A model generated the notes under the pieces. The model was not told the DNA's origin and made no database searches. It was given only the letters and a program-made list of their open reading frames with translations. Shown piece by piece: positions 6,881-17,055 of a stretch of 64,000 bases of DNA. Position numbers and translations under genes: made by a program. Position 1 is the stretch's first letter; each line of letters begins with the position of its first letter. The DNA comes from Pseudomonadales bacterium (GTDB lineage: Bacteria; Pseudomonadota; Gammaproteobacteria; Pseudomonadales; Azotimanducaceae), in the NCBI GenBank assembly GCA_028285415.1, contig JANQPF010000033.1, positions 1 through 64,000 of the forward strand, read 5' to 3'.

Positions 6881-7813
6881 ATGACGGACCCCAATTTCGC
6901 CAACCGCGACGGTTGGATCTGGATGGATGGTGAGCTTGTGCCCTGGCGTGACGCCAAGGTGCACGTGCTGACGCACACCCTGCATTACGGGCTTGGCGTA
7001 TTCGAAGGGGTGCGCGCCTACAACACGCCTGCCGGACCCTGCGTGTTTCGCCTGCAGGAACATACCGAGCGGCTCTTCAACTCGGCGCACATTCTGGGCA
7101 TGACCATTCCATACACGCCGGCGGAAGTGAACGCGGCGCAGGTGGAGGTGTTCAAAGCCAACGGCCTTGATGAGGGGTATCTGCGGCCGATGGCGTTTCT
7201 CGGCTCCGAGGCGATGGGCCTGAGAGCCCAGGGCCTGACCGTGCATCTGTCGATTGCCAGCTGGCCGTGGCCGGACTACATGGATGCAGACAGCCGGGAG
7301 AAAGGCATCAAGGTGCGCACGTCCTCCTACACGCGCCACCACGTCAATATCACGATGTGTAAAGCCAAGTCGAACGGCAACTACATCAACTCGATCCTGG
7401 CCCTGCACGAGGCGCTCGACAGCGGTTGCGACGAAGCGCTGCTGTTGGACAACGAAGGCTACGTGGCGGAAGGCAGCGGCGAGAACATTTTCCTCGTCAA
7501 GAACGGCGTCTTGCACACGCCGGAGCTGACCTCCTGTCTTGCCGGGATCACGCGCGACACCGTGTTTGCCCTGGCGGATGAGCTCAATCTCGACATTCGC
7601 GAGCGGCGCATCACGCGGGACGAGGTATACATTGCCGACGAGGCGTTTTTCACCGGTACCGCAGCGGAGGTGCTGCCCATCCAGTCGCTCGACGGGCGCA
7701 TCATCGGCGACGGCAAGCGCGGTCCCATTACCAAACAACTGCAGACCGCGTACTTCGATCAGGTGCGCGGACGGCGCTCAAGCTTCCCCGAATGGCACAC
7801 GCCGGTGCAGTGA
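6881..7813 (+). CDS. ilvE: Branched-chain amino-acid aminotransferase
   Basis: A 310-residue PLP-dependent fold-type IV transaminase that interconverts Val, Leu and Ile with their 2-oxo acids. Near the N-terminus are WMDGELVPW and LHYGLGVFEGVRAY. The PLP-lysine segment is CKAKSNGNYINSILA (near residue 160), and the signature EGSGENIFLVKNG and AEVLPIQSLDGR follow. A Shine-Dalgarno-like AGAGAGAAGAA precedes the ATG. Its stop overlaps the waaF start, so the LPS-core genes are likely co-expressed with it. The same ilvE-waaF order is known in Pseudomonas. Confidence 0.95.
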   Translation: MTDPNFANRDGWIWMDGELVPWRDAKVHVLTHTLHYGLGVFEGVRAYNTPAGPCVFRLQEHTERLFNSAHILGMTIPYTPAEVNAAQVEVFKANGLDEGYLRPMAFLGSEAMGLRAQGLTVHLSIASWPWPDYMDADSREKGIKVRTSSYTRHHVNITMCKAKSNGNYINSILALHEALDSGCDEALLLDNEGYVAEGSGENIFLVKNGVLHTPELTSCLAGITRDTVFALADELNLDIRERRITRDEVYIADEAFFTGTAAEVLPIQSLDGRIIGDGKRGPITKQLQTAYFDQVRGRRSSFPEWHTPVQ

Positions 7814-8802
7814 AAGCGCTGCTTGTTGCCCCCGCCTGGGTCGGTGACATGGTCATGGCTCATACCCTGGTGCAGTGCCTTGTGCGACGCAACGAGAGCC
7901 TCGAGCTGCACGTGGCGGCGCCCCCGGCGACCGCCCCCCTGGCTGAGCGCATGCCTGAAGTCAGTCGCGTACACGTTGCCGAATTTGCGCACGGTGAGCT
8001 CAACTTGATTGAGCGCCGCGCCATGGGCAAGGCCTTGAAGGCGCATGGCTACGACGTGGCCTATGTGCTACCGAATTCCTGGAAGTCCGCGTTGGTGCCC
8101 TTTTTTGCAGGGATACCGCGGCGCGTCGGCTGGCACGGTGAGGCTCGCTATGCGCTCCTGAACGATCGGCGCCAGCTCGACGAGGACCGCTACGGCCTCA
8201 TGATCGAGCGTTTCATGGCGCTGGCTGACGACAGGGGCCAGTTGCCGGACCGGCCATATCCCGAACCTCGTCTCAGCGTGGACGCAGAAAATCTTCAGCG
8301 TGTGTTGGCAGAGTTGTCATTGACACCGGGCAACGTGCTCGCGCTCTGCCCCGGGGCGGAGTTTGGCGCCGCGAAGAAGTGGCCGGCGGAGCACTATGCG
8401 GAAGTGGCGCGCCATCATCTGCAGCAGGGCGGTCAAGTTTGGCTTCTCGGCTCCCCGAACGATCGCGATGACTGCGTTGTCATCGCAACGCTTGCGCCGG
8501 GCGCGGTCAACCTGGCCGGCAGGACGCAGCTGGTCGATGCGCTGGATCTGCTGTCGGTCGCCGATCAGGTCATCTGCAACGACTCCGGCCTCATGCATGT
8601 GGCCTGCGCGCTGGGCCGGCCGACGCTGGGGATTTTTGGCTCGACCTCAACGGCGTTTACGCCGCCGCTGGGCGGACAGGCGCGCGTCGCCGCGCTCGAG
8701 ATGGACTGCCGCCCCTGTTTTCAGCGCGAGTGTCCGCTCGGCCACCTCAACTGTCTGCGCACGCTGACCCCGGCGATGGTGCTCGAGAGGCTCGCCGCCT
8801 GA
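7810..8802 (+). CDS. waaF: ADP-heptose:LPS heptosyltransferase II
   Basis: A 330-residue GT9 enzyme that adds the second L-glycero-D-manno-heptose to the LPS inner core at the cytoplasmic face. Visible motifs are LLVAPAWVGDMVMAHTL at the N-terminus, ALCPGAEFGAAKKWP near residue 178, and the nucleotide-sugar loop CNDSGLMHVACALGRPTLGIFGST near 255. The C-terminal CRPCFQRECPLGHLNC cysteine cluster is typical of WaaF. I chose the GTG at 7810, which overlaps the ilvE stop as GTGA and begins exactly at the conserved start of the family. An in-frame ATG six codons upstream would add residues not expected in the family. waaC overlaps its stop. Confidence 0.93.
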   Translation: MKALLVAPAWVGDMVMAHTLVQCLVRRNESLELHVAAPPATAPLAERMPEVSRVHVAEFAHGELNLIERRAMGKALKAHGYDVAYVLPNSWKSALVPFFAGIPRRVGWHGEARYALLNDRRQLDEDRYGLMIERFMALADDRGQLPDRPYPEPRLSVDAENLQRVLAELSLTPGNVLALCPGAEFGAAKKWPAEHYAEVARHHLQQGGQVWLLGSPNDRDDCVVIATLAPGAVNLAGRTQLVDALDLLSVADQVICNDSGLMHVACALGRPTLGIFGSTSTAFTPPLGGQARVAALEMDCRPCFQRECPLGHLNCLRTLTPAMVLERLAA

Positions 8803-9806
8803 TGCACGCGCTCCTGATCAAGATGTCCTCGCTGGGTGACGTGGTCCACGCGCTGCCGGCGGTGACGGACGCGGCCGCCGCGGGTGTCCGCTTCGACTGG
8901 GTGGTCGAAGAGGCGTTTGCCGATATCGCGGCGATGCATCCTGCGGTGGATCGGGTCATACCAATTGCCTGGCGGCGCTGGCGCAAAGCGCTGCGCGCTT
9001 CCAACGGCGAGCTCAAGACGTTCTTCTCGGCGCTGCGCAACCTCGAATACGACGTGGTGCTCGATTCGCAGGGGCTCATCAAATCCGCCGTGGTTGCTCG
9101 ACTCGCGCGCGGCCCGCGCGAAGGTTTTGCGCACACCGTCGCGCGCGAGCCCTGGGCGGCGTTTGCGTATCGCCAAGGTCATCGCGTGCCCACAGGTCAG
9201 CATGCCATTGACCGCCAGCGGCAGCTTTTTGCGAGCGTGTTCGGCTATACGCCCGCCGACGCCTGCGTATCCGGTCTTGAACAGGGTGGCGCACGCAAAC
9301 GCGAGGTGATGCTCCTGCACGGCACCACGTGGGATACCAAGCACTACCCCGAAACGATGTGGCGTGCCCTGGCGCAGTCCGTGGTGGCCTCTGGCTACAC
9401 CCCCGTGGTCACCTGGGGGAACGATGAGGAAAAAGCCCGCGCCGGGCGCATTGCCGAAATGCCTGGCGTGCGCCTCGTCGATCGTCTGCCGCTGGCTGAG
9501 CTCACTCGACAGCTGGCGCAAGTGGCGCTCGTCATTGGCGTCGACTCCGGGCTGATGCACCTGAGCGCCGCGCTTGGCACGCCGACGCTTGGTCTATATG
9601 GGCCTACGGATGCGCACCTGACCGGCTGCCGTGGTGCCAGGGCGGAGGTGCTGCAGGCGCAGACGCCGTGTTCTCCCTGCGTGGACAAGCGTTGCCGGCG
9701 CTACGCGGGCGAACCCGTGCAGTTTGCCGGTGCGGAGGTCATGCCGCCCTGTTTCGGCACCCTCCAGCCCGATCGCGTGTGGCAGGCGGCGCAGGCGCTC
9801 CTCTGA
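8802..9806 (+). CDS. waaC: LPS heptosyltransferase I
   Basis: A 334-residue GT9 enzyme that transfers the first heptose onto Kdo2-lipid A. The start MHALLIKMSSLGDVVHALP is the classic WaaC N-terminus. The middle has VVLDSQGLIKSAVVARLA, MLLHGTTWDTKHYP is in the second Rossmann domain, and GVDSGLMHLSAALGTPTLGLYGPT is the donor loop. The ATG overlaps the waaF stop by one base (TGATG), so longer upstream readings within waaF are rejected. A cysteine-rich stretch CSPCVDKRCRR near the C-terminus may help fold the tail. It overlaps the next gene's ATG in the same way. Confidence 0.93.
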   Translation: MHALLIKMSSLGDVVHALPAVTDAAAAGVRFDWVVEEAFADIAAMHPAVDRVIPIAWRRWRKALRASNGELKTFFSALRNLEYDVVLDSQGLIKSAVVARLARGPREGFAHTVAREPWAAFAYRQGHRVPTGQHAIDRQRQLFASVFGYTPADACVSGLEQGGARKREVMLLHGTTWDTKHYPETMWRALAQSVVASGYTPVVTWGNDEEKARAGRIAEMPGVRLVDRLPLAELTRQLAQVALVIGVDSGLMHLSAALGTPTLGLYGPTDAHLTGCRGARAEVLQAQTPCSPCVDKRCRRYAGEPVQFAGAEVMPPCFGTLQPDRVWQAAQALL

Positions 9807-12082
9807 TGCGTTTTGCGTTCACCATTTTCAAGTACTTCCCCTTCGGCGGGATTCAGCGTGATCTCATGAAGGTGGTGCGCGAATGCCAGGCGCGGGGCTA
9901 CGAAGTGAAAGTGTTCACGCTGCGCTGGGAAGCGCCACCGGCAGAGAACCTGGAAGTGGAGGTGCTGCCGATCGTGGGTCTCAACCGGCACTCGCAGTAC
10001 GAAAACTTCGCGGCGGCCGTTTGTGAGGCGGTGGCGGCGGATCAGTTTGATCTCGTGGTCGGCTTCAACAAAATGCCGGGGCTCGACGTCTACTATGCCG
10101 GGGACTCGTGCTACCTCGAGAAAGCCATCAACCAGCGCCCGGCAATTTATCGCGTGCTGCCGCGCTTCAAGAGTTTTCATGCGGCGGAGGCAGCCGTGTT
10201 CGGCCGTGATCGCGGCACTGAGATCCTGACGATATCCGACGTGGAGGTGCCGCGCTATCGGCACCACTATCAGACGTCTGCGGACCGGTTCCATCCGCTG
10301 CCTCCGGGCATCGAGCGCGATCGGGTAGCCCCGGATGACGTGACTGCCGCGCGTACGGAACTGCGTAAAGCGCATGGACTGCCTGACGATGCGCTGGTGC
10401 TGCTCTTCATCGGTTCGGGGTTCATCAAGAAAGGTCTGGATCGGGCGCTTCTGGCGGTGGCCGCGCTGCCGCCTGAGCTCAAGCGTCGCGTGCATATGTT
10501 TGTCATCGGTCGCGACAAAGGAGATCCCTTCCGGCGGATGGCGGTGCGGCTCGGTATTGATAATCAGGTGACCTTCTTCACTGAAGGTCGCGACGACATC
10601 CCGGCGTTTCTCTTTGGTGCGGATGCGTTGCTGCACCCGGCCTATGATGAAACCGCCGGCATGGTCATCATCGAAGCCATGCTCGCAGGCGTGCCGGCTG
10701 CGGTCACCCGCAACTGCGGCTACGCCAAATACCTGGCCCAGCAGGATGCGGGCATTCTGATTGAGCAGCCGTTTGTGCAGAACGAGCTGGACGCTGCCCT
10801 GGTCGAACTTCTCACCTCCGAGAAGCGCGACCTTTGGCGCGCCAACGGCAAAGCGCTTGCCGACGATCCGAATACTTTCCGCCTGGTACCCATGGTGGTG
10901 GATTATCTGGAGCAGTTTGTTGCAGCCAAAACCCCGCTCCTGATATTTACGCTCTTCCGCTACTTCCCGTACGGCGGTCTGCAGCGGGACTTTCTGCGGA
11001 TATCGCTTGCCTGCCAGGCGGCAGGCTACCGGATCATGGTCTATTGTCTCGCCTGGCAGGGAGACGTGCCGGAAGGCTTTGAGATCATTACGGTGGAAAC
11101 GAAATCTGTCGCCAACCACCGCCGCTACGGCGAGTTTGCCGAGTTTGTGAACGCCGAGACGCGCTGGCGGCACCCGGCGGCTGTCATCGGCTTCAACAAG
11201 ATGCCGGGTCTCGATCTATATTATGCGGCGGACCCCTGCTATGAGCAGAAAGTGCAGGAGATGCGCACGCCCATGTACCGCCGGCTCGATCGCTATCGGC
11301 TCCTGTCGGGGTTCGAACGGGCCGTGTTTGCGGAGGATGCCGACACGCGCATCATGATGATTGCCGAAAGCCAGGCGGAAGCGTTCAAGAAGTACTACAA
11401 CACGCCCGCCGAGCGGATGTCGTTCCTGCCACCGGGCATCAGCCAGGATCGCGCCCGGGGGGGCGACTGGCAGGCTGAGCGTGCCGCCATTCGCGCGGAG
11501 TTTGACGTGGCGGACGACGAGTATCTCCTGGTCATGGTGGGTAGCGGGTTCATCACCAAGGGTCTCGACCGGGCCCTTCGGGCGCTTGCGTCGCTGCCGG
11601 AGAAGCTGCTCGCCAACGCCCGTTTTCTCGTCATCGGGCAGGACAGTCCGCAGCAGTTTCAGCGCCTGGCCAAAAGTCTCGGCGTCGAGGAACGTTTGAT
11701 CATGACCCGCGGGCGTGACGACATACCGGCAGTCCTCCAGGGTGCTGACCTCATGGTGCACCCCGCCTACATGGAAAGCGGAGGTATGGTGCTCATCGAG
11801 GCGATCATCGCCGGACTGCCGGTGATAGCGACGTCCGTCTGCGGCTTTGCGCACTACATTGCGGAGGCAGATGCCGGCGTGGTGCTGCCGGAGCCGTTTC
11901 AGCAGGAAACGTTGAACGCGTCGGTGCGCAATGCGCTGGCAGATAACGGCCAGCGCGAAGCGTGGTCGCGTGCGGGTGTTGCCTTCGGCGTTGAACACAC
12001 AGAACTATACGACATGCCGGTGCACGCTTTGCGCTTCATCCAGGAAGCCGTTGGCGCGGCTGATGCGGAGGTGGTCAATTGA
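9806..12082 (+). CDS. Tandem fused WaaG-type glycosyltransferase (two GT4 modules)
   Basis: A 758-residue protein made of two full-length WaaG (LPS core alpha-1,3-glucosyltransferase) modules joined head to tail. Module 1 covers about residues 1-373 and module 2 about 377-758; single WaaG is about 374 residues. Each half repeats the whole signature set: KYFPFGGIQRDL then RYFPYGGLQRDF; VVGFNKMPGLDVYYAGD then VIGFNKMPGLDLYYAAD; the phosphate-binding GSGFIKKGLDRAL then GSGFITKGLDRAL; and the EX7E motif ETAGMVIIE then ESGGMVLIE. Both catalytic sites therefore look intact. The halves are clearly divergent, so the duplication is old. No in-frame stop or restart signal separates them. The ATG overlaps the waaC stop (TGATG), and a longer upstream reading is rejected as lying inside waaC. 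Likely role: adding one or two successive hexoses to heptose II (inference). Confidence 0.9.
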   Translation: MRFAFTIFKYFPFGGIQRDLMKVVRECQARGYEVKVFTLRWEAPPAENLEVEVLPIVGLNRHSQYENFAAAVCEAVAADQFDLVVGFNKMPGLDVYYAGDSCYLEKAINQRPAIYRVLPRFKSFHAAEAAVFGRDRGTEILTISDVEVPRYRHHYQTSADRFHPLPPGIERDRVAPDDVTAARTELRKAHGLPDDALVLLFIGSGFIKKGLDRALLAVAALPPELKRRVHMFVIGRDKGDPFRRMAVRLGIDNQVTFFTEGRDDIPAFLFGADALLHPAYDETAGMVIIEAMLAGVPAAVTRNCGYAKYLAQQDAGILIEQPFVQNELDAALVELLTSEKRDLWRANGKALADDPNTFRLVPMVVDYLEQFVAAKTPLLIFTLFRYFPYGGLQRDFLRISLACQAAGYRIMVYCLAWQGDVPEGFEIITVETKSVANHRRYGEFAEFVNAETRWRHPAAVIGFNKMPGLDLYYAADPCYEQKVQEMRTPMYRRLDRYRLLSGFERAVFAEDADTRIMMIAESQAEAFKKYYNTPAERMSFLPPGISQDRARGGDWQAERAAIRAEFDVADDEYLLVMVGSGFITKGLDRALRALASLPEKLLANARFLVIGQDSPQQFQRLAKSLGVEERLIMTRGRDDIPAVLQGADLMVHPAYMESGGMVLIEAIIAGLPVIATSVCGFAHYIAEADAGVVLPEPFQQETLNASVRNALADNGQREAWSRAGVAFGVEHTELYDMPVHALRFIQEAVGAADAEVVN

Positions 12083-12894
12083 CCTGGATGCGTGACGATG
12101 TCGCTTCAGCGTGGGCGGGCCTGGAGCCGCTGGACGCCGCGTTTGCGCTCGAGGGAGAGGTCTATCGTGACGTGCCGGGCCGGCGTACGCTGAAAGTCGA
12201 TATCGCCGGCCGCGACTATTTTGTGAAGCTCCACTACGGCGTCGGCTGGGGTGAGATTTTCAAGAACTGGCTGCAGCTGAAGCGTCCCGTGGTTGGCGCG
12301 GAAAACGAGTACGAAGCCTGCGTGGGGCTTGCCCGCGCGGGTATTCCCGCGCCGTTACCGGCGGCCTTCGGGGCATCGGACGGGAACCTCGCAACGCGAC
12401 GTTCGTTTGTGCTGTGTGATGCGCTGGCCGGCTATACCAGTCTCGAGGACGTGACGGACAACTGGCCCGAGCAGCCGCCGTCACCGCTGACCAGGCATCA
12501 GCTCCTCTACGCCGTTGCGCACTTTGCGCGGACATTCCATGCGGCAGGTTATGTCCACCGCGACTTCTACATCTGCCATCTCCTCTTGAACGACGTCAGC
12601 ATGGCGGCGGGCAGGGTAGAGCTTGCCGTGCTGGACCTGCACCGCGCGCGCCGCTTCGAACGCCTGCCGGATCGCTGGCGTAAGCGCGATCTGGCGGCTT
12701 TGCTCTTCTCGAGCCTCGATCTCGGCCTGTCGCAGCGGGACTGGCTGCGTTTTGTACGCATCTACACCGGTAAGCCCCTCAGGCAGGTGTTCGGGGAGGA
12801 CGCGGGCTTCTGGCGGGCGGTGCTTGCGCGCGCGGAAAAGCTCTATGACGAGGGCCTTGAGAAGGGTCACGTCAAAGGCGTTTACCGCTCATGA
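12079..12894 (+). CDS. waaP: LPS core heptose(I) kinase
   Basis: A 271-residue kinase-fold enzyme that phosphorylates heptose I of the inner core. It has an ATP-binding-lobe lysine in YFVKLHYG, an N-lobe linker GWGEIFKNWLQLKRP typical of WaaP, the catalytic loop YVHRDFYICHLLL (residues 158-170) and the metal-binding LDLHRARR. The apparent start is the TTG at 12079, which overlaps the upstream stop as TTGA; the ATG at 12088 is an alternative three codons in. In P. aeruginosa this enzyme is essential and underlies outer-membrane integrity. It is followed by the double-kinase gene with a 4-base overlap. Confidence 0.92.
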   Translation: MTWMRDDVASAWAGLEPLDAAFALEGEVYRDVPGRRTLKVDIAGRDYFVKLHYGVGWGEIFKNWLQLKRPVVGAENEYEACVGLARAGIPAPLPAAFGASDGNLATRRSFVLCDALAGYTSLEDVTDNWPEQPPSPLTRHQLLYAVAHFARTFHAAGYVHRDFYICHLLLNDVSMAAGRVELAVLDLHRARRFERLPDRWRKRDLAALLFSSLDLGLSQRDWLRFVRIYTGKPLRQVFGEDAGFWRAVLARAEKLYDEGLEKGHVKGVYRS

Positions 12895-14297
12895 AGTTCA
12901 CCGCCGAAGGTCTCGCCAAGGCGGGTATCGAACTTGTGCCGCCCTTCATCGTCGAGGTGTATCTCGATCCTTCCGAGGCGTTCAACACTGACGAGCTCGT
13001 AGAGATTCAATATGTGAGCGTGGCGCGTGTACTCCCGGGACGACGGGTCAGCGGGATTGCCGTCTGTTCTCCGGCGGGCAGCCGTGAAACGGTGTTTGCC
13101 AAGCTTTTCTACGGCAAGCGCGCGCGGCGTTACTGGCATCGTGAGCTGCAGGGTGCGGCGCGGTTGCAGTCTTCCGGGGTCCCTACGCCGAAGGTGCTGG
13201 CCCGCGGGGCAACCGCCGATGGCGCGGGCTTTGTGGTGCTGTTCGAAGCGCTCGACGGCGCTGTCAATCTGGACGATGAGAGCAACGATGACATGCGCGA
13301 GGCCGTGGGCATGCTCGCGAGTCTGCATGACGCGGATCTGATACAGACGGACGTCCACGTCGGCAACTTCGTGCGCGCGGGTGGTGACGTTTACGTGGTG
13401 GACGCGGATGGCGTGCAGCGCGCCACGCACGTGCTGCGCCAGCAATTTCCGAACCTCGGCATGCTGCTCGCGCAGCGTGCACCAGTTTGTGACACGGACA
13501 TCGACGAGATGTGGGCGTTGTATAGCGAAAGGCGCGGTGAATACGTCACCAACCTTGGCTCTGCCGGGCAGCTGCGCAAGATCACGGACAAGCAGCGCGC
13601 GCTCAGGATCCGGCGCTTCGTTGCCAAGACCCAGCGTGAATGCACGATGATTGTCCACCGGAAGTCGTTTGTTCGTAACTGGCTCTGCGATCGCGAACAC
13701 TGGCCGCGGCTGCAGCGATTGATGCTGTTTGCCGAAGCGATGGTAGGTGAGGGCACGCCGCTCAAGCTCGGCAACAGCTCCACGGTTGTCCGCATTACGG
13801 TCGACGATACCCGTTACATCGTCAAACGTTTCAACGTGAAGAACTTTGGCCACCGAATCCGCCGTTGGTTCAAGCGCCGGCCGCGGCAGTCCTGGCAGAA
13901 CGGTCACAAGCTTGCGTTTCTTGGTATCCGCACCGCCCGTCCTGTGGCGCTGCTCGAACAACGCCTCGGCTGGTTTGTCAGCACCTGTTATCTCGTGATG
14001 CCGGACTGCGGCGAGCGCGATCTCGGTCAGGCTCTGGCCACAGAGCCCGCGCTCTTTGACGAGCTGGCGCCGCAGGTGATTGAGCTCCTCGCCGGTCTCA
14101 AGGCCGCGCATCTGGCCCACGGTGATCTCAAGGCGAGTAACTTCGTGCTCGACGGCGAACGCGTGACGCTGATTGATTTTGATGCGGTTCGCACCGGCGA
14201 CAACGCCGGTGACATTGCCCGGTTCCTGCGCAACTGGGACGAGCAGCCGGAGCTCAGGGCTGCCTGGGAGAAGGTGATCGCGGAGGCGCACCTGTGA
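12891..14297 (+). CDS. Double kinase-domain LPS core protein (PA5006-like)
   Basis: A 468-residue protein with two kinase-like C-lobes in one chain. The first has IQTDVHVGNFVRAG then VYVVDADG (around residues 146-170); the second has LAHGDLKASNFVLDG then VTLIDFDAV (around 408-435). Each contains the HxDxxxxN or DxxxxN catalytic pattern and a DFG-like Asp; the first lacks the usual His before Asp (TD instead of HGD or HRD). A basic linker (RRWFKRRPRQ) sits between them, near the start of the second unit. The gene overlaps waaP by 4 bases (ATGA). It corresponds by position and size to P. aeruginosa PA5006, as I recall it. The sugar position phosphorylated is unknown. Confidence 0.8.
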   Translation: MKFTAEGLAKAGIELVPPFIVEVYLDPSEAFNTDELVEIQYVSVARVLPGRRVSGIAVCSPAGSRETVFAKLFYGKRARRYWHRELQGAARLQSSGVPTPKVLARGATADGAGFVVLFEALDGAVNLDDESNDDMREAVGMLASLHDADLIQTDVHVGNFVRAGGDVYVVDADGVQRATHVLRQQFPNLGMLLAQRAPVCDTDIDEMWALYSERRGEYVTNLGSAGQLRKITDKQRALRIRRFVAKTQRECTMIVHRKSFVRNWLCDREHWPRLQRLMLFAEAMVGEGTPLKLGNSSTVVRITVDDTRYIVKRFNVKNFGHRIRRWFKRRPRQSWQNGHKLAFLGIRTARPVALLEQRLGWFVSTCYLVMPDCGERDLGQALATEPALFDELAPQVIELLAGLKAAHLAHGDLKASNFVLDGERVTLIDFDAVRTGDNAGDIARFLRNWDEQPELRAAWEKVIAEAHL

Positions 14298-16024
14298 TTG
14301 TGCTGGGTTTGTCCGGCGCGCTGAAGCACGATCCTTCGGCCGCGCTCCTCGTCGACGGTGAGATTGTTGCCGCGGCGGAGGAGGAGCGTTTTACGCGGGA
14401 GAAGCATGCGAAGAACAGACTGCCGATCGATGCGGCGCGGTTCTGTCTCGAGCAGGCGGGGATCAGCGCGGGTGAGGTTGATCTCGTGGCCTTTCCGTAT
14501 GCACCCGTCAGCCTCTTCAGCCCGGCGCGCTGGCACTACGCACGCCGCTACTGGTACGCCCCGGATCGTGCACTCGATGCGCTTTTGAACGGCAATCGCC
14601 GGTTTCGCGCGCACCGCAAGTCCATCCTGGAGATGGGCAGCGCGCTTGGCATCAACTGGGAACGCGCCGAGTTCGTGCCGGTTGAGCATCATCTGGCGCA
14701 CGCATCGAGCGCCTATCACCTGTCACCGTTCGACGGGAAGTGCGCCATCCTCGGCGTAGACGGCAAGGGTGAGTACGCGACGACTTTTCTCGGCTATGGC
14801 GAGAACGGCGAGATCCACAAAATCAAAGAGTTCTACGACCCTGACTCCCTGGGTGGGGTGTACGGTGCGATGACCGAATACCTCGGGTTCGAAATGCTCG
14901 ACGGCGAGTACAAAGTCATGGGCATGGCGCCGTACGGTGACGCGGCCAGGTACGACCTGTCGCGACTGATTGAGCCGAACGGCAGCGGTTTCAGCGTCAA
15001 CACGAAGTACGTCAACACGGTGGGGCTCAGACGTCACAAGGAAAATGGTCAGGCCTTCTTTTTCAGTGACAAGCTCATCGATTGGCTGGGGCCAAGGCGC
15101 GTGGGCGACGCGGCTGATGATCCTTATGTGCACTATGCGGCGGCGATGCAGATGCTCTTCGAAGAGTGGGTGTTCAAGATTGTTGATGAGCATCTTGCTG
15201 ACGTGCTGGCGGAGACCGGCCGGCTCGCCTTTGCCGGCGGAGGTGCCCTCAACGTGAAGCTCAACCAGCACCTCCTCAGCCGGGATGATGTGAATGCGCT
15301 CTTTGTTCAGCCGGCTGCCGGTGATTCTGGCACCGCCCTCGGCGCCGCCACGTATGCAGCGATTGCCAGGGGTGGCCGGGTTGCCCCGCTGCGGCACGTC
15401 TACCTCGGACCCGACTATGGTGACGAGGCCTGCCTTGCGGCGATCGAATCGCGTGAGGAACACTGTGAATGGCGCCGTATGGCGGACACCGTTGCGGAAA
15501 CGGCGGACCTTCTGGCCGCGGGGCATCCGGTGGCCTGGTTCCACGGGCGCATGGAGTTTGGTCCGCGCGCGCTCGGGGGGCGCAGCATTCTGGGTTGTCC
15601 GAACGCGCCGGGAATTGCCGATCGGATCAACGCACAGATCAAGTTCCGTGAACGCTGGCGGCCTTTCTGTCCCAGCATGCTGGACCGCGTGGCGAGCGAC
15701 ATCCTGCAGTCCGAGCATCCGGCGCCGTACATGACCATCACGTTCGAGGTGGCAGCGTCCTGGCGCGAGCGCATCCCTGAGGTGGTGCACGAGGATGGCA
15801 CGGCCCGAGCCCAGGTTGTCGACGTCGAGAGCAATCCGCGGTACTACGCGCTGCTGGAAGCGATGGAGGCGCGGACGGGTAACGGCGTGCTTCTCAACAC
15901 CTCGCTGAACCGGCGCGGGGAGCCGATGGTGTGTTCCCCGGCGGACGCGCTCGACATGTTTTTCGGCTGCGATCTCGAGTACCTGGTGCTGGAAGACTGG
16001 CTCGTGACCAAGAGTCCAGGATAA
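14294..16024 (+). CDS. Carbamoyltransferase of the NodU/CmcH family (LPS core)
   Basis: A 576-residue O-carbamoyltransferase. The N-terminal domain has SGALKHDPSAALLVDGEIV and AAEEERFTREKHAKN, then HHLAHASSAYHLSPF and ILGVDGKGE, as in the HSP70/actin-like domain of this family. The C-terminal half has LAFAGGGALNVKLNQ, GDSGTALGAA, and the YrdC-associated signature FHGRMEFGPRALGGRSILG and RFRPFCPS-like region. The GTG start overlaps the double-kinase stop (GTGA). P. aeruginosa LPS carries a carbamoyl group on heptose II made by WapO, encoded at the equivalent place, so the same role is likely (family and context inference). Confidence 0.87.
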   Translation: MIVLGLSGALKHDPSAALLVDGEIVAAAEEERFTREKHAKNRLPIDAARFCLEQAGISAGEVDLVAFPYAPVSLFSPARWHYARRYWYAPDRALDALLNGNRRFRAHRKSILEMGSALGINWERAEFVPVEHHLAHASSAYHLSPFDGKCAILGVDGKGEYATTFLGYGENGEIHKIKEFYDPDSLGGVYGAMTEYLGFEMLDGEYKVMGMAPYGDAARYDLSRLIEPNGSGFSVNTKYVNTVGLRRHKENGQAFFFSDKLIDWLGPRRVGDAADDPYVHYAAAMQMLFEEWVFKIVDEHLADVLAETGRLAFAGGGALNVKLNQHLLSRDDVNALFVQPAAGDSGTALGAATYAAIARGGRVAPLRHVYLGPDYGDEACLAAIESREEHCEWRRMADTVAETADLLAAGHPVAWFHGRMEFGPRALGGRSILGCPNAPGIADRINAQIKFRERWRPFCPSMLDRVASDILQSEHPAPYMTITFEVAASWRERIPEVVHEDGTARAQVVDVESNPRYYALLEAMEARTGNGVLLNTSLNRRGEPMVCSPADALDMFFGCDLEYLVLEDWLVTKSPG

Positions 16025-16029
16025 GCCGC

Positions 16030-17055
16030 ATGCGGCGCTTTCTCCAGATCTGCCCCCACGACGTTGCCCCCTTCGGCGAGCTCTGCGACCGCTATCGCGA
16101 AGCTGCGGCGATCATGGATGCTGAATTCACCACGGTATTCATTGCGCCGCCGGAACATGCGCCGCGTGAGGGTGCCGTCTACCTCGATGTCTCCGACATG
16201 GGCGACACCCGGGCCATTTCATCTGCGCTCGAGGCAGCGCTGCCCGGTGAGTGGGACCTTGCGCTTTGTCACCGCTACCGTGCGTACTGGGCGTTCGTCC
16301 GCTCGCGTCTGTCCGCCCGACAGACGATTGCGCTGGCCCATGACTACGGCATGATGTCGCGCTGGCAGCGGCGCTGGAACCGGAGCCTTTTCGCACGGCA
16401 CGTCCAGTTTGCCGGCGTGGCCGACGACCTTTGCCGCGAGCTCGCGACGGACATCGCAGGGGAAGCCGTGATTCTGCCCAACGCGATGAACCTCGACGTG
16501 AAGCCGTCCCTCAGCCGGGCTGAGGCGCGCCACCGGCTTAAGCTGCCTGCGGATGTACCCGTAGTCGGATTTGTCGGGCGTCTGCATTACAAAAAGCGGC
16601 CGAATCTCGCGCTACAGGCGTTTCGGATCCTCGCCGAGCAAATTCCCGATGCGCACATGGTTTTCGTGGGCGACGGCGAGGAACGCGAGCGGCTGGCGGA
16701 CCAGTCTGGCGACAACGTCACCCTCACCGGATTTGTGGAAGATGCGCCTTCGCTGTTCCCAGCGTTTGATGTCTTGTTGCACACCGCGCGCAAAGAGGCG
16801 TTCGGCATGGTGGTGCTGGAAGCCATGGCCGCCGGCGTACCGGTGGTAACGCTCGAACGCTTCGGTCCGCAGTATGTGCTCAGCGATCTCGGCACGTACG
16901 CGGAGCGTGATGACGCTGCCGCCTTTGCCGATGCCGTTCACCGTGCGCTCGCCCGCGAGCGGGGAGCGTATGAGGAGGCCAGCCGAGAGCGTGTGCAGGA
17001 CGCGTTTTCGCCGGCCGCGCTTGCCCGTGCGCTCGAGGTTTGTCTGCAGCGCTAG
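16030..17055 (+). CDS. GT4-family core glycosyltransferase (WapH-like position)
   Basis: A 341-residue GT-B fold transferase. VGFVGRLHYKKRPNLAL (near residue 178) is the donor-phosphate loop and ARKEAFGMVVLEAMAAGVP contains the EX7E catalytic motif. The ATG at 16030 lies five bases after the carbamoyltransferase stop; an upstream reading beginning inside that gene is rejected. It ends the core operon and overlaps the convergent acyltransferase gene by 4 bases at its 3' end. Position matches P. aeruginosa wapH (PA5004), but sugar donor and acceptor cannot be read from the sequence. Confidence 0.85.
   Translation: MRRFLQICPHDVAPFGELCDRYREAAAIMDAEFTTVFIAPPEHAPREGAVYLDVSDMGDTRAISSALEAALPGEWDLALCHRYRAYWAFVRSRLSARQTIALAHDYGMMSRWQRRWNRSLFARHVQFAGVADDLCRELATDIAGEAVILPNAMNLDVKPSLSRAEARHRLKLPADVPVVGFVGRLHYKKRPNLALQAFRILAEQIPDAHMVFVGDGEERERLADQSGDNVTLTGFVEDAPSLFPAFDVLLHTARKEAFGMVVLEAMAAGVPVVTLERFGPQYVLSDLGTYAERDDAAAFADAVHRALARERGAYEEASRERVQDAFSPAALARALEVCLQR

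Follow-up and report, generated by a model that had tools for sequence, protein, structure and literature searches.

WaaG is the glycosyltransferase that adds the first outer-core sugar of lipopolysaccharide (LPS), and it has been treated as a single-module enzyme and as a target for drug adjuvants (PMC10579960). According to the comparison given in that source, five residues separate the enzymes of Pseudomonas aeruginosa and Escherichia coli: the former, which hydrolyses UDP-N-acetylgalactosamine (UDP-GalNAc), carries Y97, T208, N282, T283 and T285, whereas the latter, which uses UDP-glucose (UDP-Glc), carries F97, R208, A282, A283 and I285. Exchange of all five residues, 208 and 283 included, turned the donor from UDP-GalNAc to UDP-Glc; residue 283 is described as touching the sugar and R18 the ribose in P. 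aeruginosa WaaG (PaWaaG), and residue 208 may also bind an acceptor phosphate (PMC10579960). Here we describe a gene that joins two such modules in one chain. It lies in a stretch of 64,000 nucleotides from a Pseudomonadales bacterium (assembly GCA_028285415.1, contig JANQPF010000033.1, positions 1 to 64,000 of the forward strand), the whole of which we call the window. At not quite an even chance, our data tentatively favour a bifunctional LPS-core glycosyltransferase, whose two WaaG modules would use two donors and serve neighbouring core positions. The gene is built as follows (aa, amino acid positions of the fused protein).

9806..12082, forward strand: the whole fused waaG-waaG gene, 758 codons plus stop (orthologues)
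9806..10927, forward strand: N module, a complete GT-B WaaG, aa 1-374 (Pfam, residue table, alignment, match to the solved WaaG 8b5s, AlphaFold2)
10427..10429, forward strand: codon of Lys208 in the N module, the donor-specificity position (residue table; role of the position from PMC10579960)
10649..10675, forward strand: EX7E motif of the N module, E282 and E290 (translation, alignment)
10928..10936, forward strand: three-residue junction, aa 375-377 (AlphaFold2: last N-module helix 360-374, first C-module strand 378-382)
10937..12055, forward strand: C module (8b5s match, residue table, AlphaFold2, identity comparison)
11555..11557, forward strand: codon of Thr584 in the C module, equivalent to PaWaaG Thr208 (residue table)
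11774..11800, forward strand: EX7E motif of the C module, E657 and E665 (translation, alignment)

Translation of 9806-12082 gave 758 residues in an unbroken frame with a single terminal stop, and the initial ATG shares one base with the waaC stop (TGATG). An earlier sequence-only reading had described one uninterrupted 758-codon gene with every WaaG landmark doubled, which the translation confirms: FPFGGIQRD in the N half is answered by FPYGGLQRD in the C half, GFNKMPGLD is present in both, and GSGFIKKGLDRAL is answered by GSGFITKGLDRAL. The two complete WaaG modules (family GT4, GT-B fold) are spaced by ~376 residues. As that reading also stated, each half keeps the phosphate-binding Lys (K209 and K585) and both catalytic Glu (E282-X7-E290 and E657-X7-E665). 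The Gly15 and Arg173 of WaaG are present in both modules too. The separate search of each half and the structure prediction that it had proposed gave what it expected. Both halves resemble characterised WaaG over the full length of ~370 residues and match the solved WaaG 8b5s (348.8 bits for the N half, 423.6 for the C half, the next solved family reaching ~55 bits), and AlphaFold2 (10 sequences; mean predicted local distance difference test 88.2, predicted template modelling score, pTM, 0.71) returned two complete GT-B modules, folded like 2IW1 and 8B5S, with a three-residue turn at 375-377 between them. Pfam Glycos_transf_1 matches each half (98.4 and 125.7 bits). No NCBIfam model reached its curated cut-off for either half, and no WaaG/RfaG equivalog was among the 19 matches of the N half or the best 25 of the 29 matches of the C half. 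The halves are 39% identical to each other in global and 41.5% in local alignment (E 4e-93), a similarity that is far beyond chance. An ordinary WaaG has a single module of ~374 residues per protein; the window protein has two modules in 758 residues and is therefore a fused variant and no ordinary member of the family.

The residues of the donor pocket were compared, in PaWaaG numbering, across 47 fused proteins from the Pseudomonadales family of the window, which fall into a clade A (26 proteins) and a clade B (21 proteins, the window's among them). None of the 47 departs from G15, R173, K209, E281 and E289 in either module. All 47 N modules carry Lys at position 208 and all 47 C modules Thr; at a 90% threshold only columns 208 and 360 split all N from all C modules in both clades, and zero columns split clade A from clade B. 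Position 283 is Ala in 45/47 N modules, Thr in 23 of the 26 C modules of clade A and Gly in all 21 of clade B, and position 285 is Ile or Met in 45/47 N modules. The window's N pocket reads Y97/K208/T283/A284/M286 (PaWaaG 97/208/282/283/285) and its C pocket S/G/M at 282/283/285. By these residues the N pocket appears nearer to the UDP-Glc pocket of E. coli, though it is no clean E. coli set. In clade A the C modules hold the P. aeruginosa UDP-GalNAc set (N282 in 26, T283 in 23, T285 in 23), and in clade B S282 and G283 (21/21 each). Two control groups, labelled from their residues and not from names, behaved as reported for their types: the Pseudomonas-like f21 (codes with f and g denote families and genera, L and G numbers loci and genomes) has Y97/T208/N282/T283/T285 in 17/17, as the GalNAc type, and the enteric-like f227 has R208/A282/A283/I285 in 3/3, as the Glc type. 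Lys208 was found in none of these 20 rows and in none of 45 other outgroup rows. The sequence-only reading had seen two copies of one glucosyltransferase: both halves are indeed WaaG, but the fixed Lys and Thr at 208 make them unlike two such copies and point to two different donors.

Among the 32 single WaaGs of the family residue 208 is Lys in 24, Thr in 4, Arg in 2, Ser in 1 and not scored in 1. These were recounted separately, the f1-single row of the residue table (56 rows, Lys208 in 42/56) being mixed: it includes rows of fused genes cut by contig ends (L171, L173, L210, L213, L216, L228) or broken in frame (L160), 3 WaaG~WaaP and 2 WaaG~half~WaaP proteins and 12 first modules of genus g301. 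In genus g608, the genomes G1191 and G1192 carry a further waaG-waaP pair on a separate contig (L212, L217; Thr208, Ala19), and their core operon itself has a single waaG of the N type.

In the bifunctional enzyme that we tentatively favour, the donor would be of the glucose type for the N module (K208, A283, M/I285) and another for the C module (T208). For the C module of clade A this might be UDP-GalNAc, its pocket being the P. aeruginosa set, and for that of the window's clade (S282/G283) perhaps another N-acetylhexosamine. The two sugars would go onto neighbouring or successive places of the heptose region, probably in successive steps, and the tight junction would keep the pair of modules at one lipid acceptor held in the membrane. 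Lys208-type WaaGs often stand alone, with no C module, and one relative, G1190, has another GT4 gene at the place of the C module, which together would favour the N module acting first; the C module is close to the WaaG of Pseudomonas, whose direct acceptor is heptose II, and this would favour the C module.

The fusion is widespread in the family. In the window's genus a full-length fusion was found in 11 of 37 genomes, its own included (58 relatives searched), and in the family a WaaG match was found in 110 of 206 genomes searched. The survey took 110 loci from 107 of these 110 genomes, leaving out G1182, G1185 and G1186 (g298). Two full, motif-intact modules in one open reading frame (ORF) occur at 47 of the 110 loci, in 15 genera; L149, at the same place as L237, was dropped. 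The other loci comprise 4 two-module proteins with a diverged second module (g293; kept apart from the 47), 12 with a weak second module (g301), 3 WaaG~WaaP fusions, 3 chains with a partial second module between WaaG and WaaP, 32 single WaaGs, 8 loci cut by contig ends and 1 with a broken frame (L160). The sequence-only reading had named a missed stop between two genes as a possible refuter. The named records found for relatives are metagenome-assembled genomes, which would suit such an assembly or sequencing artefact, but the frame is open in 47 separate genomes, in one of them (G018) within a contig of 4.65 Mb, and the junction is without gaps across 10 aligned orthologues. Thus the artefact, whose chance we put at practically nil, was rejected on the strength of the 47 orthologous fusions, and the fusion is genuine.

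Outside the family no two-WaaG protein was seen among 390 genomes sampled from the order, 369 from the class and 398 from the phylum, as judged from the query ranges and frame lengths in the match tables and from some of the long-frame loci, which were fetched (those of G408, G350 and G399, for example, were not). The samples overlap and include family members, and WaaG matches numbered 123/390, 45/369 and 27/398. At 7 of the fetched loci the long frame was a WaaG~WaaP fusion; the others had one WaaG, in some cases with read-through from upstream. Among the best 10 of 131 plasmid records the matches span ~0.8-1.1 kb, with no two-module gene. Within the window's genus (g1, 40 genomes), WaaC and WaaP were found in the same 11 genomes as the fused WaaG (genome size 2.8-6.0 Mb); neither WaaP nor WaaG was matched in the remaining 29 (1.6-3.4 Mb), and WaaC only by one weak partial hit (G035). 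Either the whole heptose core was lost in congeners with small genomes, or the genus is lumped.

For the history of the fusion, module trees were built after rows shorter than 340 residues and duplicates had been dropped (223 rows kept); IQ-TREE (LG+C20) was run on 87 chosen rows, on 79 rows without 8 long branches, and on 53 rows. FastTree places the N and C modules of clade A as sisters (0.968), which fits two fusions, whereas IQ-TREE groups all C modules together (support 93-94 with 87 and 79 rows, 81/48 with 53 rows), which fits one; the N modules form one group with a support of only 15. The approximately unbiased test did not reject the grouping of clade A N with C modules (p 0.805), at a likelihood 16 above the quick tree. 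The mixture-model trees and the split at 208 are compatible with a single ancient fusion. We lean slightly towards one origin, which the shared K208/T208 split and the zero fixed columns between clades A and B would favour, two columns being thin evidence. The halves had been expected to form separate, consistent clades: the C modules of each clade do cluster well, whereas the N modules of the window's clade are intermixed with the single-module WaaGs found in their own genera, which indicates that the second module was repeatedly lost (or, less likely, gained). In G1190, whose N module shares 85.6% identity with the N module of the fused G1189, there is no C module; waaG and waaP are separated (L180:8103-11348) by another GT4 gene and by two ORFs that resemble FkbM methyltransferases, the second FkbM match being weak (24.7 bits, cut-off 22.7). 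We read this GT4/FkbM insert as a core-variation cassette.

The old duplication under selection proposed from sequence is upheld by the fusion common to 15 genera and by the ratio of non-synonymous to synonymous substitution rates (dN/dS). For the congeneric pair L131/L124 it is 0.05 in the N half and 0.12 in the C half, and every computable value among the 27 same-genus pairs listed is ≤0.43 in either half, several pairs being saturated. Purifying selection on both halves is supported.

Two sister genera have kept the fusion with a dead second site. K209 and E281 are absent from the second module in 17/17 proteins, namely all 12 fused ones of g301 (L182, L187, L190, L200, L202, L203, L206-L209, L215, L218) and all 5 of g293 with a long second module (L104, L172, L188, L191, L228), and E289 has become Asp in 15 of the 17. 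By its motifs this second module would be a conserved pseudo-glycosyltransferase fused to an intact WaaG. The claim of two active transferases thus agrees with the intact motifs of the 47 proteins and fails for g293 and g301; that they would act in series on heptose II, with no release of the substrate between, is a conjecture of the sequence-only reading. At two further g293 loci (L107, L199) about half of the second module is left, between WaaG and a WaaP domain, and L227 has a related chain:

L107, 6978-9701, reverse strand: WaaG~partial WaaG~WaaP, 908 aa
L199, 7007-9667, forward strand: WaaG~partial WaaG~WaaP, 887 aa
L227, 5306-7462, reverse strand: WaaG~WaaG~WaaP, 719 aa, both WaaG modules being N-terminal halves

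Several observations count against the bifunctional enzyme. Residue 282 of the N modules is the P. aeruginosa-like Asn in 20/47 (Ala in 16/47, Thr in 9/47), residue 97 is Tyr in 36/47, and the basic residue 208 is Lys in the N modules and Arg in the E. coli type. The window's C pocket is without N282 and T283 and therefore gives no ground to assume UDP-GalNAc there; among the 47 proteins Leu takes the place of R18 in 5 N modules and in 5 C modules, and in g293 the N module of all four two-module proteins carries Thr208. The orientation of the modules to each other is only moderately certain at a pTM of 0.71. The fusion was retained in g293 and g301 after the second active site was lost, which a pure two-step transfer does not predict; therefore coupled transfers cannot be the sole reason for the fusion there, and it may also serve a structural role. 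The donors, their order, the acceptor and any channelling are what we infer, and the enzymatic activity is what we predict. Lys or Thr at 208 could moreover mark the acceptor rather than the donor, because residue 208 may contact an acceptor phosphate; allowing it this role leaves the donor as the likelier of the two.

The phosphate contact (PMC10579960) would also suit a duplication with a single donor, in which one hexose is added to two positions or twice running and 208 tunes the acceptor; both halves are WaaG by sequence, and 20/47 N modules share Asn282 with many C modules. We consider this unlikely: the sugar-contacting position 283 differs too (Ala against Thr or Gly), and the swap of five residues that turned UDP-GalNAc use into UDP-Glc use included 208 and 283 (PMC10579960). 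That the window's C module serves chiefly to hold the lipid acceptor or the membrane, with little or no transfer, en route to the pseudoenzymes of g293 and g301, we regard as quite improbable. A motif-dead second module is kept in 17/17 proteins of these two sister genera and many relatives do without a C module, but K209, E281, E289, R173 and G15 are invariant in 47/47 C modules from 15 other genera, the window's included, and dN/dS is low in the C half. Decidedly improbable, in our view, are parallel branches, in which each module would act on a heptose or position of its own and the fusion would do no more than keep their stoichiometry. Species with the N module only retain the operon, so the products need not be interdependent; yet both WaaGs compared in PMC10579960 add to heptose II at O3. 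Beside the bifunctional enzyme, which we still prefer, we entertain with some doubt a wider scenario: an ancient WaaG duplication would have been fixed as one chain at the base of the family, with a Lys208 glucose-type and a Thr208 N-acetylhexosamine-type site handing the lipid-bound core from one to the other; some second sites would then have died and become a pseudoenzyme that holds WaaG (in g293 also WaaP) on the acceptor, in a lineage tending towards multi-enzyme chains.

In the core operon the fused gene follows waaC and precedes waaP; its neighbours are:

7792..8802, forward strand: waaF, heptosyltransferase II (TIGR02195, 419.9 bits, above cut-off)
8799..9806, forward strand: waaC, heptosyltransferase I (TIGR02193, 316.8 bits, above cut-off)
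12088..12894, forward strand: waaP, heptose I kinase (PRK15123, 295.9 bits, above cut-off)
12891..14297, forward strand: kinase-fold protein of 468 aa at the place of PA5006 (Pfam WaaY-like at 112-176, Kdo/WaaP-like at 330-435; Kdo, 3-deoxy-D-manno-octulosonic acid)
14294..16024, forward strand: carbamoyltransferase at the place of wapO (Pfam, operon comparison)
16027..17055, forward strand: single GT4 at the place of wapH (Pfam, operon comparison)

The order waaF-waaC-waaGG-waaP-kinase-carbamoyltransferase-GT4, followed by lpxL (opposite strand) and hldE, agrees with that described for Pseudomonas, namely waaF, waaC, PA5010, waaP, kinases, wapO and wapH, where PA5010 is the galactosamine transferase onto heptose II (PMC8005017). 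At the fused loci waaP is next in 47/47 and waaC precedes in 45/47; the two without a seen waaC (L143, L236) have only 1.5 and 2.6 kb of upstream sequence. These flanks and the Pseudomonas-type order place the fused gene at the position of waaG. Loss of waaG reportedly disturbs core phosphorylation, as a title by Yethon from 2000 is said to state. WaaP, WaaQ and WaaY are described as acting first and WaaG afterwards (PMC4483631, which cites the Yethon paper), and these two sources disagree on whether WaaP acts ahead of WaaG.

Other proteins of the locus are fused as well. The kinase-fold protein at 12891-14297, with its two kinase-type Pfam matches, is possibly an old kinase fusion. WaaG~WaaP fusions (635-717 aa) occur at L113-L118 and L121 in five other families and at L105, L192 and L222 in the window's family; they were found by similarity, both Pfam domains were present in 10/10, and they unite the first outer-core transferase and a heptose kinase in one chain, apparently with several origins. 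A fusion of WaaP with the next kinase was seen, by similarity only, in 17 loci (ORFs of 516-964 aa): L104, L172, L182, L187, L190, L198, L200, L202, L203, L206, L207, L209, L215, L220, L224 and L225 in the window's family and L138 in another. Both kinds of fusion, at the same locus, and the WaaG~half module~WaaP chains of g293 fit the idea of physical coupling.

A natural fusion whose modules differ at a donor-choice residue is a ready-made experiment on the evolution of GT4 specificity and on a possible physical coupling within LPS-core assembly. This can be tested directly in sister species, some of which have two intact sites, some an intact and a dead site and some one module. Single-WaaG models do not suffice to read the core structures of this large Pseudomonadales family. 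Neither a WaaG-WaaG fusion nor the two-pocket split nor the pseudoenzyme relatives are named in the titles and abstract openings of the papers listed in the literature searches, a coverage that most subscription journals fall outside.

The closest described protein is P. aeruginosa WaaG (PA5010; PDB 8B5Q/8B5S/8B62/8B63), 51% identical to the C module over 363 residues, with the same fold, the same operon place and the Thr208 of the C module; it differs in being a single module, whereas the window protein has a further module with Lys208 ahead of the C module, and in its N282/T283/T285, where the window's C module has S/G/M. PaWaaG failed to complement an E. coli K-12 waaG deletion (PMC10579960). 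E. coli WaaG/RfaG (PDB 2IV7, 2IW1) shares the GT-B fold, EX7E and the phosphate-binding Lys209 with the window protein and Ala283, a hydrophobic 285 and a basic 208 with its N module, but is a single module with Arg208 instead of Lys208, and is 44% identical to the C module. The Kdo transferase WaaA is a single-module enzyme and no two-module WaaG fusion. It is nevertheless alike in that one protein adds two core sugars (PMC11231755). WbdA, the O-antigen polymerase of E. coli O9 and Klebsiella pneumoniae O3, likewise has two glycosyltransferase modules per chain, one per linkage, in LPS synthesis, but it makes a repeating mannan from GDP-mannose and is an O-antigen and not a core enzyme (PMC11231755). 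The window gene has two such modules in one chain, in a heptose-core operon instead of an O-antigen locus, and its pockets resemble those of UDP-sugar WaaG enzymes, as against the GDP-mannose of WbdA. The WaaG family and tandem glycosyltransferase chains such as WbdA were thus already known, and the tandem WaaG would be a new variant.

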